Positions 7,478 to 13,060 of a stretch of DNA of 64,000 bases are shown here, piece by piece (the first letter of the stretch is position 1; every line of letters begins with the position of its first letter). The notes under the pieces are model-generated. The model was not told the origin of the DNA. It saw only the letters and a list, made by a program, of their open reading frames with translations, and did not search any database. Both the position numbers and the translations under genes were made by a program. Source of the stretch: Gluconobacter potus (GTDB lineage: Bacteria > Pseudomonadota > Alphaproteobacteria > Acetobacterales > Acetobacteraceae); assembly GCF_015244705.1 (NCBI RefSeq), contig NZ_JABCQF010000001.1, positions 1-64,000 on the forward strand, written 5' to 3'.

Positions 7478-8848
7478 TCAGGCGCGGCGTCCGTCGGTCC
7501 GTTCAAGGTCCCGGAACTGCCGCTCCAGACTGAAATCGGGCGATGTGACGAACTGCTCCATCAGGCCGAGCCGGCGCTCCATCCGGACCAGCCGGTCCTG
7601 AAGCCGTGCCAGCGGATGACCTGGCGGGACGGAGCGGGAGAAATCCTCGGCCGGTTCCGGCGGCTGGCGACGGAAACCCGTCACGGCATCCCGCACCGCG
7701 GCCGTGGCGCTGGCAGCCGGAGTGTCCCGCCATGCGGCCCGGTGCCGGGACCAGCTTCGCACGCCTTCGGCATATCCTGCCGCAGCTTTGTTCAGCGTGC
7801 TCCTGAACGGCAGGACGCCCGTCCGGCGATAGCGCCGGAAGAGACGCACGGCCCAGACGATCAGGGCAATTTTCAGCAGAAGGCCGATCAGGCCGTGGCC
7901 ACCGGAATGAGGGCTTCTGGCATGGACAGGGGGTTCTGAATCCTCATCCGAATTTCCGAGCTGGACATGGAAGCTGCCGAGGACTTTCCGCGCCGTATCA
8001 GACAGGATCGCGGACGGATCGGGTGTGGTTGAGGTCGTGATCCGCGCGCCCGAGCTTTCGGTAACGGAGATCGTGCCGGAGCCGAGCGGGCGCTTCTTCA
8101 GCATCTCGCTCACCCTCTGAAGCGTGATGTCGCCGCTGCCCAGGAGCGTCACATCCGCATCCCGTGTGCGCGTGTTCAGCACGATATCGGCCGAGCCATA
8201 ATCCCGGACCGTCAGGACGTCCGTATCGCCCTGGCCAATCCGGATGTCGCCCGAGGACATGGCTGTCAGGCTCGCCCTGGCGGCGGCGATACTGTCGATA
8301 TGCAGGTCACCGCTGGCAAGGTTCTGCACGGTCAGCCGACCCGTGACATGCCGGACCGAGACCGTTCCCGAACCTTCCATGTTCAGGGTCAGGCCAGCGG
8401 CCTGATCAACCTCCAGATCGCCCCGGCCTGTGACGGCCGTCACCTCACCGTTGACGCCGCTGATGCGATACGTCGTCAGGTTGTTCCGGGGAGACAGGAT
8501 CTCGATACCGGTCTGCGCGGGGACCATGACGACGGCATTGTCCTGGCTTGAGCAGTCCCGTGCGGATGTCGTGAAGGTCAGCCGGTCACCGTGTTTTTTC
8601 AGGCGGCCGCTTCCCGAAACGATATGGGCGTCTTCTCCACCCACGACGGACAGGTGGTCCAGGCATGTTGCGGGAATCACGAGCGTGCCGGAAGCAGCCA
8701 GCGGGACTTCCAATAACGGCGGCATGGGGGGAGCAGGAGGCGCTGGCGGCATGACCACCGGCTCTGCGCAGGCTGAACCGGGAAGGGCCGCGATGCCGCA
8801 TCCCAGAAGTGCGATCAGGGCAAGACGCACAGGCAGAAGCTGGCGCAT
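7478..8848 (-). CDS. Exported toast-rack-like protein with a PspC-type C-terminal tail
   Basis: The 456-aa protein has a signal peptide (1-28), a Pro-rich linker, a repetitive beta domain of the head-GIN/toast-rack (DUF2807-like) kind at about 50-270 (GSGDI, GRGDL, SSGDIRIG, GSGTISV turns), one transmembrane helix at about 319-337 (GLIGLLLKIALIVWAVRLF), then a cytoplasmic region. The last part, ERRLGLMEQFVTSPDFSL then RQFRDLE (about 424-449), lines up with the end of E. coli PspC (ETRLREMERYVTSDTFTL then RFRQL). The typical PspC N-terminal membrane domain is absent. It is the last gene of the pspAB operon, 3 bp after the previous one. The inference is that it senses the envelope through the beta domain and contacts PspA through the tail. 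Confidence 0.7.
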   Translation of the reverse strand: MRQLLPVRLALIALLGCGIAALPGSACAEPVVMPPAPPAPPMPPLLEVPLAASGTLVIPATCLDHLSVVGGEDAHIVSGSGRLKKHGDRLTFTTSARDCSSQDNAVVMVPAQTGIEILSPRNNLTTYRISGVNGEVTAVTGRGDLEVDQAAGLTLNMEGSGTVSVRHVTGRLTVQNLASGDLHIDSIAAARASLTAMSSGDIRIGQGDTDVLTVRDYGSADIVLNTRTRDADVTLLGSGDITLQRVSEMLKKRPLGSGTISVTESSGARITTSTTPDPSAILSDTARKVLGSFHVQLGNSDEDSEPPVHARSPHSGGHGLIGLLLKIALIVWAVRLFRRYRRTGVLPFRSTLNKAAAGYAEGVRSWSRHRAAWRDTPAASATAAVRDAVTGFRRQPPEPAEDFSRSVPPGHPLARLQDRLVRMERRLGLMEQFVTSPDFSLERQFRDLERTDGRRA

Positions 8849-8851
8849 GTC

Positions 8852-10192
8852 TTATTCTCCCTGTGAGCCGTTTCCGGCAGCCGGGGGCGTGACCGTTGCG
8901 GGGTTTGCCGGTGTTGGAGTGACTGGCGCTGGAGTGACCGGTGTCGGGGTTGCAGGCGCCGGGGTGACGGGAGCCGGCGTGCTTTCCGGCGCGGGCGTGC
9001 CAGTCGGCTTTGTGGGCGTTTTGCTGTCCTGTGGTGCAGGAGCCGCAGGCGACGTCTGAGGCGCGGTTGGCGATGCGGTCTGCGGTGCCGTGACTGGTGT
9101 GGATGCACTGGCGGATGTCGAAGGCGTTGCAGGCGCTGCCGTAGCGGGCGCGTTTGCGGCCGGAGGTGTTGTAACCGGTGCATTGTCCGGCTGCGCGGCT
9201 TTCGCGGAAGGCGTAACGCTGGGGGCCTGTGGTACGGCAGGGCTTTCAGGTACCGACGGCGCCGTCGGTGCGGGAACCGGTGCAGGCGTTGGAGCGACCG
9301 GTGCCGGGACGGCTGCTTCCGTTCCCGTTGCGGGAGCCTGAACCGGGGTGGACGGCAGGGGAGCAGGTGTTGCGGGGACAGGCAGCGCGGCGGGGGGCGG
9401 CGGTGTCGGGCGGTAGATCACGCCGTTCTGCGCGCCGACACGCACGGTGCCTTTGCCCGAGCGCACCATCGGCCCTGAAACTGCTTCGATATTGACCTCG
9501 CCCGTTCCGTTGGCTGCGACGGTCGCGACGGTTGCATGACCTAGGATGGTGGCACTGGCCTGATCGGCCGTCACCAGCGTCAGGGCATCAATACTGCTGC
9601 CCGAAAGCGTCATGGTCGCATTCTGCGTCAACTGCGCGGAAAGGGCCGCGAGCTGGGCGGTGTCAGCAGTCAGGGTCGAGGCTCCCGACGCCACGATCTG
9701 GGCCGCGCGTTCCAGGGACTTGATATGGACGCTGGACGCGCCCTGCATGTTCAGGTCCAGCGACTGCGTGTCCTCGATGTCCATGGTCGTGGAATCGAGG
9801 CTGGCGTCCAGCGAGGCGAGCTTTCCCGTGATGACGAAATGCGTGTCGTGGCTGTCATGAATGGTCAGGCCGGTGCTCGGGGAAATGCTGATCGTCAGCT
9901 TTCCGTTCGGAGCGCAGGCTTTCGTGGCGATGGAAATGCGGCTTTCCGCCTCTTCCTTGCCGGTGTGCATCGCGACCTGGGCCATGCTGCTCGAATCAAG
10001 GGTCGCCCCGTCCTTCATGGCGGGATCGACCACGACCCTGACCTGTCCGGTGCAGGGAACGGACAGATCCAGGTCTTCTCCGGACAGGGTCATCCGTGCG
10101 GCATGGGCCGCAGGCGCCAGCAGGGCCACGCCCGCCAGCAGGGCCAGAAGCGCCGGGCGGGGGCCGGAAAAGAAGACGGGGCGGCGTGTCAT
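8852..10192 (-). CDS. Exported toast-rack-like protein with long Pro/Ala/Thr-rich tail
   Basis: The 446-aa protein has an N-terminal signal (MTRRPVFFSGPRPALLALLAG..AHA, about 1-31). A beta-solenoid domain at about 35-258 has the D-x-x-G-ASS-x-x-I and TGEV-IEAVSG turn pattern of the DUF2807/GIN type. From about 262 to the end it is an extremely Pro-, Ala- and Thr-rich extension with degenerate TPAPVTP repeats, which could span the periplasm or cell wall. No transmembrane helix follows, so it is probably periplasmic or outer-membrane-associated. It overlaps pspB by 4 bp. It shares the fold class of its downstream neighbour and so may be a paralogue. Function is inferred only from its place in the Psp operon. 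Confidence 0.65.
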   Translation of the reverse strand: MTRRPVFFSGPRPALLALLAGVALLAPAAHAARMTLSGEDLDLSVPCTGQVRVVVDPAMKDGATLDSSSMAQVAMHTGKEEAESRISIATKACAPNGKLTISISPSTGLTIHDSHDTHFVITGKLASLDASLDSTTMDIEDTQSLDLNMQGASSVHIKSLERAAQIVASGASTLTADTAQLAALSAQLTQNATMTLSGSSIDALTLVTADQASATILGHATVATVAANGTGEVNIEAVSGPMVRSGKGTVRVGAQNGVIYRPTPPPPAALPVPATPAPLPSTPVQAPATGTEAAVPAPVAPTPAPVPAPTAPSVPESPAVPQAPSVTPSAKAAQPDNAPVTTPPAANAPATAAPATPSTSASASTPVTAPQTASPTAPQTSPAAPAPQDSKTPTKPTGTPAPESTPAPVTPAPATPTPVTPAPVTPTPANPATVTPPAAGNGSQGE

Positions 10193-10425
10193 CGTGCGTT
10201 CCTTGCTCTCCAGCCCGGGATATCCTCATCAAGGATGCGTTCGAGCTGGTCGATCCTTTCTTCCAGACGCGTAGCATGGGCTTCGGCCTGTGTCAGTGCG
10301 GCCTGAAGCATGGGATCGGGCTGGCTGGCCGACTTATCTTTTGCGATGGATTTTATCGCGCCAACGACGAGGGCGACCATGGGCAGACCAAAGATAAGCA
10401 GAATGGCGAGTGTGTCGTTATTCAT
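10189..10425 (-). CDS. pspB: Phage shock protein B
   Basis: The 78-aa protein has one N-terminal transmembrane helix (about 5-25) and a cytoplasmic amphipathic part with HATRLEERIDQLERILDEDIP and GWR, matching the PspB pattern RERIQSLESILDAEHPNWR. PspB and PspC normally relieve PspA inhibition of PspF under membrane stress. The gene lies 27 bp downstream of pspA and overlaps the next gene by 4 bp. Family length is about 74-80 aa. Confidence 0.85.
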   Translation of the reverse strand: MNNDTLAILLIFGLPMVALVVGAIKSIAKDKSASQPDPMLQAALTQAEAHATRLEERIDQLERILDEDIPGWRARNAR

Positions 10426-10452
10426 TCCGGAGTTCCAGTGGCGGATGAATGA

Positions 10453-11136
10453 TCAGCCTGCATTTTTCTTTTCAGCAACACGGCGCTTGAGGGCCTCGAA
10501 CTCGTTTTCCACGACAGCATCGGTTTCAAGGGCAGCGAGTTCCTCCTGAAGTGTCGGATGGCCGGTGCGGCGTCCCAGATCATAGGCCTCTGCCTTGCCT
10601 TCAAGCTCATCAAGAGCGCGTTCCACCTGATCGAAGCGGTTCAGTGTGTCGTCGATGCGGGTGTCGTAGAGCTTTTCGCGGGTTTTCAGGCGGCCCTGTG
10701 CGGTCCGAGCGCGGATGGACAGCGCCTTTTCGCGGGATTTGGCATCCGCGAGCTTGGCCTGAAGTTTGGAGATGTCGTCGTTCTGCTGGTCCAGCCCATC
10801 GGAAATCTGGGCGATCTGCTGCTCCAGCGCCTCGCGGGACTGTTCCACGCTATGGCGGGCGGCGAGGGCGGCCTTGGCGAGATCGTCACGGTCGCGCTCA
10901 ATGGCGAGGCTGGCCTTCCGGTGCCACTCGTCTTCCTCATGCATCATGGTACGGACGCGGCGTTCAAGCTGCTTGCGCTCGGCAATCGTGCGGACGGCCT
11001 GACTGCGGACCTCGACCAGTGTGTCTTCCATTTCCTGGATGACCAGGCGGATCATTTTCTGCGGATCTTCGGCGGTGGCGAGAATCGCATTGAGATTGGA
11101 GTTCACGATATCGGCGAGGCGAGAGAAAATACCCAT
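10453..11136 (-). CDS. pspA: Phage shock protein A
   Basis: The 227-aa protein is coiled coil almost throughout and starts with MGIFSRLADIVNSNLNAILATAEDPQKMIR, the amphipathic helix that binds stressed membranes, continuing LVIQEMEDTLVEVRSQAVR as in PspA/IM30. PspA is an ESCRT-III-like membrane-stabilising protein and inhibits PspF. A good ribosome site (GGAAGGAA) precedes the ATG. It is the first gene of the operon and diverges from pspF. Confidence 0.95.
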   Translation of the reverse strand: MGIFSRLADIVNSNLNAILATAEDPQKMIRLVIQEMEDTLVEVRSQAVRTIAERKQLERRVRTMMHEEDEWHRKASLAIERDRDDLAKAALAARHSVEQSREALEQQIAQISDGLDQQNDDISKLQAKLADAKSREKALSIRARTAQGRLKTREKLYDTRIDDTLNRFDQVERALDELEGKAEAYDLGRRTGHPTLQEELAALETDAVVENEFEALKRRVAEKKNAG

Positions 11137-11166
11137 GATGCTTTCCTTCCTGTTGGAGAGACTTAG

Positions 11167-11182
11167 GACAGAATGCCTGCCC
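11167..11182 (-). promoter_or_regulatory. Possible sigma-54 promoter for pspA
   Basis: Read on the minus strand, GGGCAGGCATTCTGTC resembles the -24/-12 consensus TGGCACG-N4-TTGCW. The -24 GG is present, but the -12 GC is GT. It ends about 30 bp before the pspA start, a suitable distance. Because PspF has the sigma-54 contact motif GAFTGA, a -24/-12 promoter is expected in this interval; this is the best candidate, but the match is imperfect. Confidence 0.35.
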
Positions 11183-11235
11183 TTGTCAGCGATGCTGTTT
11201 TGAGGGTGTTATGAACTGAAGACCGGAACAGGGGC

Positions 11236-12303
11236 GTGAGAGACCAGAAAATGGCGAGAAGCACCGATATGGACGAGGTGCCGACCCCGATCGGGCGGGC
11301 TCCGGCATTTCTGGGAATGCTGGATCAGGTTTCCCGCCTTGCGCCGCTGCGCCGTCCGGTTCTCGTGATCGGCGAGCGCGGGACGGGCAAGGAACTGGTG
11401 GCCGCTCGTCTGGCCCTGCTGTCGGATCGCTGGGACCGTCCGCTGGTGAAGCTCAACTGCGCTGCGCTGCCCGAGGCGCTCCTGGACAGCGAACTGTTCG
11501 GCCATGAGGCGGGTGCGTTCACGGGCGCGCAGAAGCGTCGCCTGTCCCGTTTCGAGCGGGCGGATGGCGGCACGATGTTTCTCGATGAGATCGGAACCGC
11601 GTCCCAGGCTGTGCAGGAAAAGCTGCTGCGGGTGATCGAATATGGCAGTTTCGAGCGCGTGGGCGGCAGCGAGACCATTCGCGTGGATGTGCGGCTGATC
11701 GGGGCCACCAATGCCGATCTGCCGGCCATGGCGCGGGAGGGGTGCTTCCGGGCGGATCTGCTGGACCGGCTGGCCTTCGATGTCGTGAACATTCCGCCGC
11801 TGCGCGCCCGTCCCGAGGATATTCCCTTGCTGGCCGGGCATTTCGCGACCCGCATGAGCGCGGAGCTGGGGCGGAAGGTTTTTGCGGGCTTTACGGACCG
11901 GGCGCTGGAGCGCCTGCAGGCTTACGACTGGCCCGGCAATGTGCGCGAATTGCGCAACGTGGTCGAGCGCAGTGTCTATCGGATGGACCGTCCGGAAAAG
12001 GCCTTGGACGAGATCGTGCTGGACCCGTTCGTGACGCCGGACTGGCAGGATATGGGCGTGCCGGTTGCTGGTCCTGCGGTGAGTGTGGACACAGGCGAGG
12101 CGCTGACATTTCCGCGGGATTTCGGAGCGGATGTCCGGGCGCATGAACGCAGCCTTCTGGAAGCTGCCCTGCGTGAGGCGCAGTTCAGCCAGCGGCGTGC
12201 GGCCGAGCTGCTCGGCCTGACCTACTACCAGTTCCGCCATCATCTGCGGCTGCATGGTCTGGCGGACAAGGAGGCCCGCAAGGCGCTGGGTGCAAAAGGG
12301 TGA
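11236..12303 (+). CDS. pspF: Sigma-54-dependent activator PspF
   Basis: The 355-aa protein begins directly with the AAA+ domain (Walker A GERGTGKE near 46-53, sigma-54 contact loop GAFTGA near 93-98, Walker B TMFLDE near 113-118, arginine-finger region VRELRNVVERS). It ends in a Fis-type helix-turn-helix (RRAAELLGLTYYQFRHHL). The absence of a receiver or sensor domain is typical of PspF, which is held off by PspA. It is divergent from pspA with 99 bp between. The start is uncertain: GTG 11236, ATG 11251 and ATG 11269 are all in frame. Confidence 0.92.
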   Translation: MRDQKMARSTDMDEVPTPIGRAPAFLGMLDQVSRLAPLRRPVLVIGERGTGKELVAARLALLSDRWDRPLVKLNCAALPEALLDSELFGHEAGAFTGAQKRRLSRFERADGGTMFLDEIGTASQAVQEKLLRVIEYGSFERVGGSETIRVDVRLIGATNADLPAMAREGCFRADLLDRLAFDVVNIPPLRARPEDIPLLAGHFATRMSAELGRKVFAGFTDRALERLQAYDWPGNVRELRNVVERSVYRMDRPEKALDEIVLDPFVTPDWQDMGVPVAGPAVSVDTGEALTFPRDFGADVRAHERSLLEAALREAQFSQRRAAELLGLTYYQFRHHLRLHGLADKEARKALGAKG

Positions 12304-13060
12304 GAGCATGTCCATGAAATCCCATGATGCATGAACCGTGCCAGATGTCGTTCAGAGGGATTTTCATGCTGTCGAAGAGGCTTTTTTCAGCTCCAATAAT
12401 GGTGCATATGGCCATTATATGGGTTGCGGTGCCATTTCTTCCGGAGTGCCAGGGCATGTCGGCATTGACAGGTCTTTAACCGGCTTTCCATAGCTTTCCG
12501 GGCGGATGTGCCCGTGATTGTCAGATTCGCCATATTATGTGGATGTGCATTGCTGGATGCTTACGCTGCGGCATCTTGCGGACTGATGATCCTGCGGGTG
12601 CGGAATGGTGTTCTGGATCTGGCCTGAGTGGGGTTTGAGGATACGCTGCCGGGGTTTGAAGTCAGGGTCTTTTTCCGGGTCGAGCCGGATGTTCGCCTGC
12701 GTGTGGAAAGCTGGGAGCGCATGTGGAGTGGCCCGGCAGGGGGAAGCAAAGCGGGCAGAAGAGCCTTGTGTCCCACAAGACGAATCCCTGCCCGGACAGC
12801 CCGAGCTGGCGGAAGCGTCTGCGGGGTCTGCTGGGAATGGTGCGGCTCCGGCGGTCCGTGGCCTGGCGATATATTGTGCCAATGATACTGTATCTGTGTG
12901 GCGGAGATTGTGCTGAAAAGACGTGCGTTCAACGTGATATAACAACGAAATAGAAAAGTTATATCAAATAAAATAGTTTATTTTTGCGGATGATGCGCCT
13001 ATGTCTCGGGGCGTGCCGCTCAGGTGGCATGACTGATCTGGACACAGGTAGGTGCAGCGC
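12304..13060. other. Long gene-free stretch between pspF and cysH
   Basis: No frame in these 757 bases has convincing coding character; the open frames are short, Arg/Pro/Ser-rich and overlap one another on both strands. The right end (12930-12990) is A+T-rich and holds the inverted repeat listed next, so it probably contains the cysH promoter. The central part (12600-12900) has coding-like composition and could be a decayed gene, but I could not recognise one. Confidence 0.4.
12935..12966 (+). promoter_or_regulatory. Inverted repeat upstream of the cys operon, candidate operator
   Basis: TGATATAAC and GTTATATCA form a perfect 9-bp inverted repeat with a 14-bp spacer, in a short A+T-rich island about 95 bp before cysH. 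TAAAAT nearby could serve as a -10 element. CysB-type LysR regulators bind A+T-rich ATAA/TTAT dyads upstream of cys genes, so a sulfur regulator is a reasonable guess, but no regulator gene is adjacent. Confidence 0.4.

Follow-up and report, generated by a model that had tools for sequence, protein, structure and literature searches.

The Psp operon of Gluconobacter potus considered here lies in a window of 64,000 nucleotides (positions 1-64,000 of the forward strand of contig NZ_JABCQF010000001.1, assembly GCF_015244705.1) and comprises a divergent pspF gene on the plus strand and pspA, pspB, gene 3 and gene 4 on the minus strand. The last ~46 residues encoded by gene 4, a toast-rack protein predicted to be exported, are homologous to the C-terminus of PspC. 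Sequence comparisons, structural models and the analogy with Escherichia coli and Yersinia make it fairly likely that gene 4 encodes an envelope-facing replacement for PspC, with a tail that would be held by PspB and would capture PspA upon stress, thus freeing PspF.

A PspC-type tail on a toast-rack protein

The gene 4 tail corresponds to positions 76 to 121 of the 121 positions of TIGR02978 (E=6e-6) and is the sole match of this model in the genome; with 26.1 bits, it covers the tail only and stays below the full-length equivalog threshold of at least 104 bits. When a hidden Markov model (HMM) was built from real PspC tails, the gene 4 tail reached 51.4 bits, compared with 12.8 bits for the best of 2,500 shuffled sequences, which rules out a chance or compositional match. 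A copy of PspB is likewise ruled out, since the PspB of the window matched the tail HMM with only E=4. The original prediction, made from the DNA letters alone, had described pspA and pspB as normal, the PspC membrane domain as missing and the end of gene 4 as alignable with the end of PspC, and it had proposed a profile search of the tail. All of this is borne out: PspA and PspB pass the NCBIfam equivalog cut-offs, and the profile match of the tail is significant. PspF passes its equivalog cut-off as well, and a sigma-54 factor (rpoN) is encoded in the genome. The PspC domain (PF04024) gave no match in the genome, and none for gene 4 at E<=10. A complete PspC elsewhere in the genome, which the prediction had considered as counter-evidence, is ruled out, because none was found with either PF04024 or TIGR02978.

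Gene 4 exceeds the Pfam cut-offs of two toast-rack families (DUF2807, 33 versus 24.2 bits; DUF4097, 28.4 versus 22.9 bits), and its closest named relative, from Gluconobacter oxydans NBRC 14819, is 93% identical. The predicted parts are, in order, an N-terminal signal, a beta-solenoid (residues 55-272), a transmembrane (TM) helix (residues 319-343) and a cytoplasmic end, as had been proposed. In the AlphaFold2 (AF2) model, most blocks of the solenoid have a predicted local distance difference test score (pLDDT) above 90, and helices are formed by residues 319-343, 412-435 and 437-455. A Foldseek search returned toast-rack 'adhesins' as best matches, which were weak (best E=4.1e-3, none at or below 1e-3). 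Gene 3 encodes a second protein of this kind, with AF2 strands at residues 34-252, a weak DUF2807 match (E=0.36) and no helix predicted past the solenoid in its AF2 model. Its C-terminal ~190 residues are rich in Pro, Ala and Thr, and a toast-rack HMM matches its homologues.

A hydrophobic stretch is found at the N-terminus of the 29 homologues of gene 4 that were compared (best hydropathy over 19 residues, 1.1-2.2). The hydropathy of the TM helix exceeds 1.6 in 27 of them, the flanks of this C-terminal helix are more positively charged after than before it in 26, and two cysteines lie towards the N-terminal side of the solenoid region in all 29. Because of the hydrophobic N-terminus, the positive flank after the TM helix and the cysteine pair, the comparison favours a topology with the solenoid outside and the tail inside, in agreement with what had been predicted. 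Cys17 of gene 4 (window positions 8798-8800) belongs to an LLGC or LLSC motif that is found in the signal of eight homologues, including the one in the window, and that was not seen in the other 21; it possibly represents a lipoprotein signal.

Like PspC (TIGR02978/PF04024), gene 4 has a helical C-terminal tail with a VTSxxFxLxRxF segment, adjoins the pspA-pspB operon genes and has a C-terminus that is predicted to be cytoplasmic. It differs by lacking the PspC membrane domain, in place of which it carries the N-terminal signal, the ~220-residue solenoid and the single TM helix. With the toast-rack proteins of the DUF2807/DUF4097 type (solved relatives 3pet, 3jx8 and 4opw) it shares the domain family and the apparent fold type, but it is predicted to be exported and TM-anchored, and it ends in a PspC tail. 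Many of the positions that are invariant in this otherwise fast-evolving protein lie in the tail, including the VTSxxFxLxR segment beyond the coiled coil. In the on state, PspA is reported to be bound by the C-terminal cytoplasmic domain of Yersinia PspC (PMC5596341) and likewise by E. coli PspC, where the leucine-zipper region is needed (PMC3068692). Thus, the segment kept in gene 4 corresponds to the known output module of PspC.

In the proposed mechanism, the periplasmic toast-rack domain of gene 4, probably together with gene 3, would provide the input in place of the membrane-embedded PspC domain, and the single TM helix would carry the tail to the cytoplasm. By analogy with E. coli and Yersinia, PspB would retain the tail at rest. 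Upon stress, the tail would pass from PspB to PspA, and the capture of PspA would free PspF, which would activate sigma-54-dependent transcription. The parts of this model that we infer are the topology, from sequence features and the structural model, the contacts with PspA and PspB, and what the solenoid senses.

Distribution and lineage of the tail-bearing protein

Within the genus, the tail-bearing protein is present in 21 of 26 sampled genomes, including the one studied here, and missing from five with small genomes. Three loci of small-genome members of the genus (L058, L059 and L060) keep a homologue of gene 3, while pspF, pspA and pspB were not found in the 9-11 kb around it; in L058 and L060, this homologue adjoins an mlaE-like gene. 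Across 249 genomes of Acetobacteraceae, all of which were searched for the tail, 18 genomes from 11 genera carry it on such a protein; the toast-rack part was confirmed separately, G149 excepted, and the frame in G049 is interrupted by a run of unread bases, which places the toast-rack domain and the tail in different frames. PF04024 was detected in 26 of the 249 genomes and coincides with the tail-bearing protein in four (G043, G049, G080 and G225). It was not found in any of the 12 genomes with a tail-bearing protein outside the three genera with two systems (g44, g50 and g80). In a class-wide sample, 38 of 385 genomes had the tail (E<=1e-5); an open frame of at least 330 codons was seen for the window alone. 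Among the 28 class-wide loci that were opened, the N-terminal domain of PspC was in the frame of the tail in 26, and no toast-rack match was found within flanks of ~1.5 kb in any; L162 and L164 contained neither domain. Locus L124 (G022) has the order pspB, gene 3 and tail-bearing toast-rack gene; pspA and pspF were not found in 10 kb, nor did the 450 bp next to its pspB contain a good sigma-54 site. Searches for relatives in viral contigs and for Rfam matches gave no result.

In related genera (L051, L067-L069), the operon has the order pspA-pspB-pspC-toast-rack, and the toast-rack protein is N-anchored and has no tail. In the genera with two systems, the tail-bearing toast-rack gene and its own pspB are located at a second, split locus without pspA, which in the cases inspected adjoins genes that we take to be gltX-like and cysS-like. 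A tree of PspF and PspA (32 rows) contains a clade of the 15 PspC-less loci (100/100) and a separate one of the four two-system genomes (100/99). In the PspB tree (41 rows, without a row for L142), the PspBs of the split loci (6) and of the PspC-less type (16) form one clade (99/99), so that the PspB partners of the tail-bearing protein stand apart from the PspBs of PspC-type loci. The L142 locus (G096) contains two PspB-like matches. In the four two-system genomes, the tail of PspC has no VT(S/T)xxF motif, whereas the toast-rack tails of these genera keep it.

These data suggest that in the two-system genomes the PspC function has apparently been handed over to the envelope sensor. In the simplest reading of the trees and motifs, the pair of PspB and tail was duplicated onto a toast-rack protein and took over the contact with PspA, after which PspC was lost. 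The separate PspB lineage and the coexistence with a decayed-tail PspC in four genomes point to such a take-over rather than to an erosion of pspC. For this reason, the earlier view that only the PspC tail survives is right in that a tail is present without the PspC domain, but the tail is not a simple leftover of pspC. Small proteins of Azospirillum, Niveispirillum and Aerophototrophica, encoded next to a second PspB, also have a PspC tail that is separate from the PspC domain and follows a different TM segment; these differ from gene 4 in having only 80-81 amino acids, no periplasmic domain and a full PspC in the same operon. In the Azospirillum-type operons L121, L122 and L123, the small protein consists of a PspB-like TM segment and a PspC tail and is followed by a second PspB, beside a full PspC. 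Short tail frames also occur in L148 and L154.

Two other explanations of the tail have to be weighed. It might be a structural or PspB-stabilising remnant, which pairs with PspB and passes no signal to PspA, while the toast-rack proteins act as envelope-protecting effectors. The PspB co-lineage and the split loci without pspA indeed show the link to PspB more directly than that to PspA, and PspB and PspC of Yersinia alone are reported to be able to prevent secretin killing (PMC5596341). We nevertheless regard a remnant as rather unlikely, as the tail accounts for many of the invariant positions, including those of the C-terminal segment beyond the coiled coil. That the resemblance to PspC is due to a convergent coiled coil or to a PspB-like helix is most improbable: the tail is short, helical and rich in Arg, Glu and Leu, and the PspB helix is similar, but the tail HMM score far above that of any shuffle, the poor match of the window PspB and a tail match that runs right to the end of the PspC model argue for homology.

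Several points weigh against a replacement of PspC by gene 4 and against the history proposed for it. The TM region of E. coli PspC, which is absent from gene 4, has been reported to contact PspB (PMC3068692). On the basis of other architectures, toast-rack domains are argued to be intracellular by Ravi et al. 2024 (PMC11237479); the architecture of gene 4 looks like an exception to this proposal. In the PspF and PspA tree, the order among the PspC-less, the two-system and the PspC-plus-toast-rack groups is weakly supported (81/64), and a tree of the tail, with 49 columns, is too short to resolve its origin. Finally, the g96 lineage (L142, G096) has a decayed PspC tail, and no tail-bearing toast-rack protein was found in its genome; therefore, decay of the tail alone is no proof of a hand-over.

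Position of the putative promoter and the antisense frame over pspF

All 16 PspC-type loci tested have a sigma-54 site with 10-12 of 12 consensus positions no more than 450 bp away from pspA (equalled by at most 8 of 200 shuffles), and the six split loci all have one before pspB (at most 10 of 200 shuffles). In none of 19 PspC-less loci, the window included, was such a site above chance found within 450 bp upstream of pspA, and the canonical arrangement with a sigma-54 promoter between pspF and pspA is not seen in the window. In each of the 24 PspC-less loci that reach far enough, a sigma-54-type site (10-12 of 12 positions) is present past the 3' end of pspF and points to pspA through pspF in antisense. 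The pspF stop codon could be placed in 21 of 22 of these loci, and in those 21 the site lies 15-32 bp past it. L132 carries an additional, more distant site that points to pspA, and a single 10-of-12 site in the opposite direction is present in each of L120, L125 and L129. An activator-site-like palindrome of the type TGGY-N7-RCCA lies upstream of the sigma-54 site in 17 of 22 PspC-less loci, 11 of 16 canonical pspA promoters and all six split loci (0-9 of 300 shuffles each); this pattern and the spacing of the start codon described below were noticed in the sequences before they were counted. L065, which gave no pspA start by the pattern used, was left out of the counts of the palindrome and of the sites within 450 bp. 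The sigma-54 consensus is not rare in the genome (57+57 sites that deviate in no more than one position, versus 43+48 for a reversed control), and the weight of the far-side site therefore rests on its fixed position and conservation. In the PspC-less loci, the psp stress promoter appears to have been relocated to the far side of pspF.

A start codon (ATG in 23 loci, GTG in one) follows the -12 TGC of the far-side site at 12-13 nt, near the expected sigma-54 start point, in all 24 loci; this spacing was found at none of the 16 canonical and one of the six split promoters, two more having 14 nt. The start codon opens an antisense frame of 356-434 codons, which in all 24 PspC-less loci spans pspF and stops 12-106 nt before pspA. 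For this count, no pspA was obtained from L104, L110 and L111, nor a pspA start from L124. The codons of the antisense frame line up with those of pspF, and its stops would therefore arise from TTA, CTA or TCA codons of pspF; in 22 of 22 loci the frame contains no stop in 350 codons, while the two other antisense frames contain 4-14 stops over the same length. None of these three codons occurs in 21 of 21 pspF genes from PspC-less loci (330 codons each, ~47 expected from the codon use of the same loci), the window pspF being free of them over its last 330 codons. Eight PspC-type pspF genes contain 11 such codons in total, and three of the eight have none; the other eight of the 16 PspC-type loci gave no pspF by the pattern used, and L129 was left out. 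GC content by itself is not sufficient as an explanation, because only 17 of 89 other genes with at least 330 codons in the same loci contain no such codon over a length of 330 codons. This comparison involves loci related by descent, many of the 89 genes being the same gene in sister genomes, as well as mechanical gene picks and a codon-position filter that passed pspF itself in only 13 of 21 loci. A conserved antisense protein was considered and rejected. At four-fold sites, pspF is about as divergent as its neighbours (mean 0.44, within the 0.36-0.57 of eight neighbouring genes; 91 pairs, 14 Gluconobacter loci), and the antisense product is therefore not visibly conserved; the frame in the window gave only a sub-threshold Pfam match to chorismate lyase (E=0.024).

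We tentatively propose, as a possibility of nearly even weight, that the PspC-less psp operon is read as one sigma-54 transcript, which would start on the far side of pspF at a start codon preceded by no leader or almost none, be translated antisense through pspF and continue into pspA, pspB and the two toast-rack genes. The frame would be kept open for translation itself and not for its product, as translation would protect the 1.2-kb leader, antisense to pspF, from Rho. When psp is activated, its own activator gene pspF would then be silenced, which would create a built-in pulse. Somewhat doubtful, in our view, is a different arrangement, in which the far-side site drives only a short RNA antisense to pspF and a promoter of its own, close to pspA, serves the operon. 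It draws on the CTGACAAG block ~50 nt upstream of pspA, which is kept in all 14 Gluconobacter loci aligned and may be a second promoter. A short RNA, however, needs no antisense frame that stays open across pspF almost to pspA, no above-chance sigma-54 site lies next to pspA in the 19 loci, and simple consensus scans of the minus strand between 7300 and 12700 found neither terminator-like nor sigma-70-like sites. The features of the locus are compiled in Table 1; pspB and gene 3 overlap by 4 bp, and genes 3 and 4 are spaced by 3 bp.

Table 1. Positions of the psp genes and of predicted regulatory features in the window.
Feature	Positions	Strand	Basis
Gene 4, tail-bearing toast-rack protein (predicted exported), 456 aa	7478..8848	-	Pfam DUF2807 and DUF4097 over cut-off; AF2
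PspC-type C-terminal tail in gene 4, residues 403-448	7505..7642	-	TIGR02978; tail HMM
Gene 3, second toast-rack protein (predicted exported), long Pro/Ala/Thr tail	8852..10192	-	AF2 strands; weak DUF2807
pspB	10189..10425	-	TIGR02976, 60.8 bits (cut-off 51.7)
pspA	10453..11136	-	TIGR02977, 284.5 bits (cut-off 242.95)
CTGACAAG block ~50 nt upstream of pspA	11160-11200	-	Alignment of Gluconobacter loci
Antisense frame, 368 codons, ATG at expected sigma-54 start point	11209..12315	-	Spans all of pspF; stops 72 nt before pspA
pspF, GAFTGA motif kept	11236..12303	+	TIGR02974, 502.7 bits (cut-off 443.55)
Sigma-54 promoter-like site TGGCACGGTTCATGCA beyond pspF 3' end	12328..12343	-	11/12 consensus positions
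Activator-site-like palindrome TGG(C/T)-N7-(A/G)CCA, upstream of sigma-54 site	12400..12414	-	Pattern match

Relation to known operons and significance

Operons of this type have been described before. Ravi et al. 2024 (PMC11237479) reported that in some Alphaproteobacteria the PspC of PspFABC is replaced by multiple Toastrack proteins (example ANQ40502.1), and the gene arrangement of these PspFAB-Toastrack operons is identical to that of the Gluconobacter locus. The claim of a distinct architecture thus holds for the retained PspC tail but not for the arrangement, which had already been published. The PspC tail, the distinct PspB lineage and the promoter position noted at Gluconobacter-type loci are not mentioned in the main-text parts covered, and the terms 'antisense' and 'sigma54' are absent from the main text. 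In the open-licence literature searched, we found no report of a PspC tail on a toast-rack protein or of an antisense promoter. As far as these sources go, the operon type is known, and the tail, the PspB lineage and the putative promoter shift are apparently new.

The findings address two open questions of the Psp response, namely what PspB and PspC sense and which part of PspC constitutes a portable output. They describe an apparent evolutionary domain swap, in which the output tail and its matching PspB were kept and the membrane sensor was exchanged for a periplasmic one, and they suggest how operons described as PspC-less could still be wired to PspA. The pair of tail and PspB thereby becomes testable as an interchangeable signalling module. 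If the antisense promoter holds true, these loci would represent a conserved regulatory design, with transcription and translation of a stress operon running across the gene of its own activator in antisense, and the synonymous-codon choice of a regulator gene would serve the other strand. The Psp system would then have been re-wired both at its input, by an exported sensor with a PspC tail, and at its output, by an antisense promoter.

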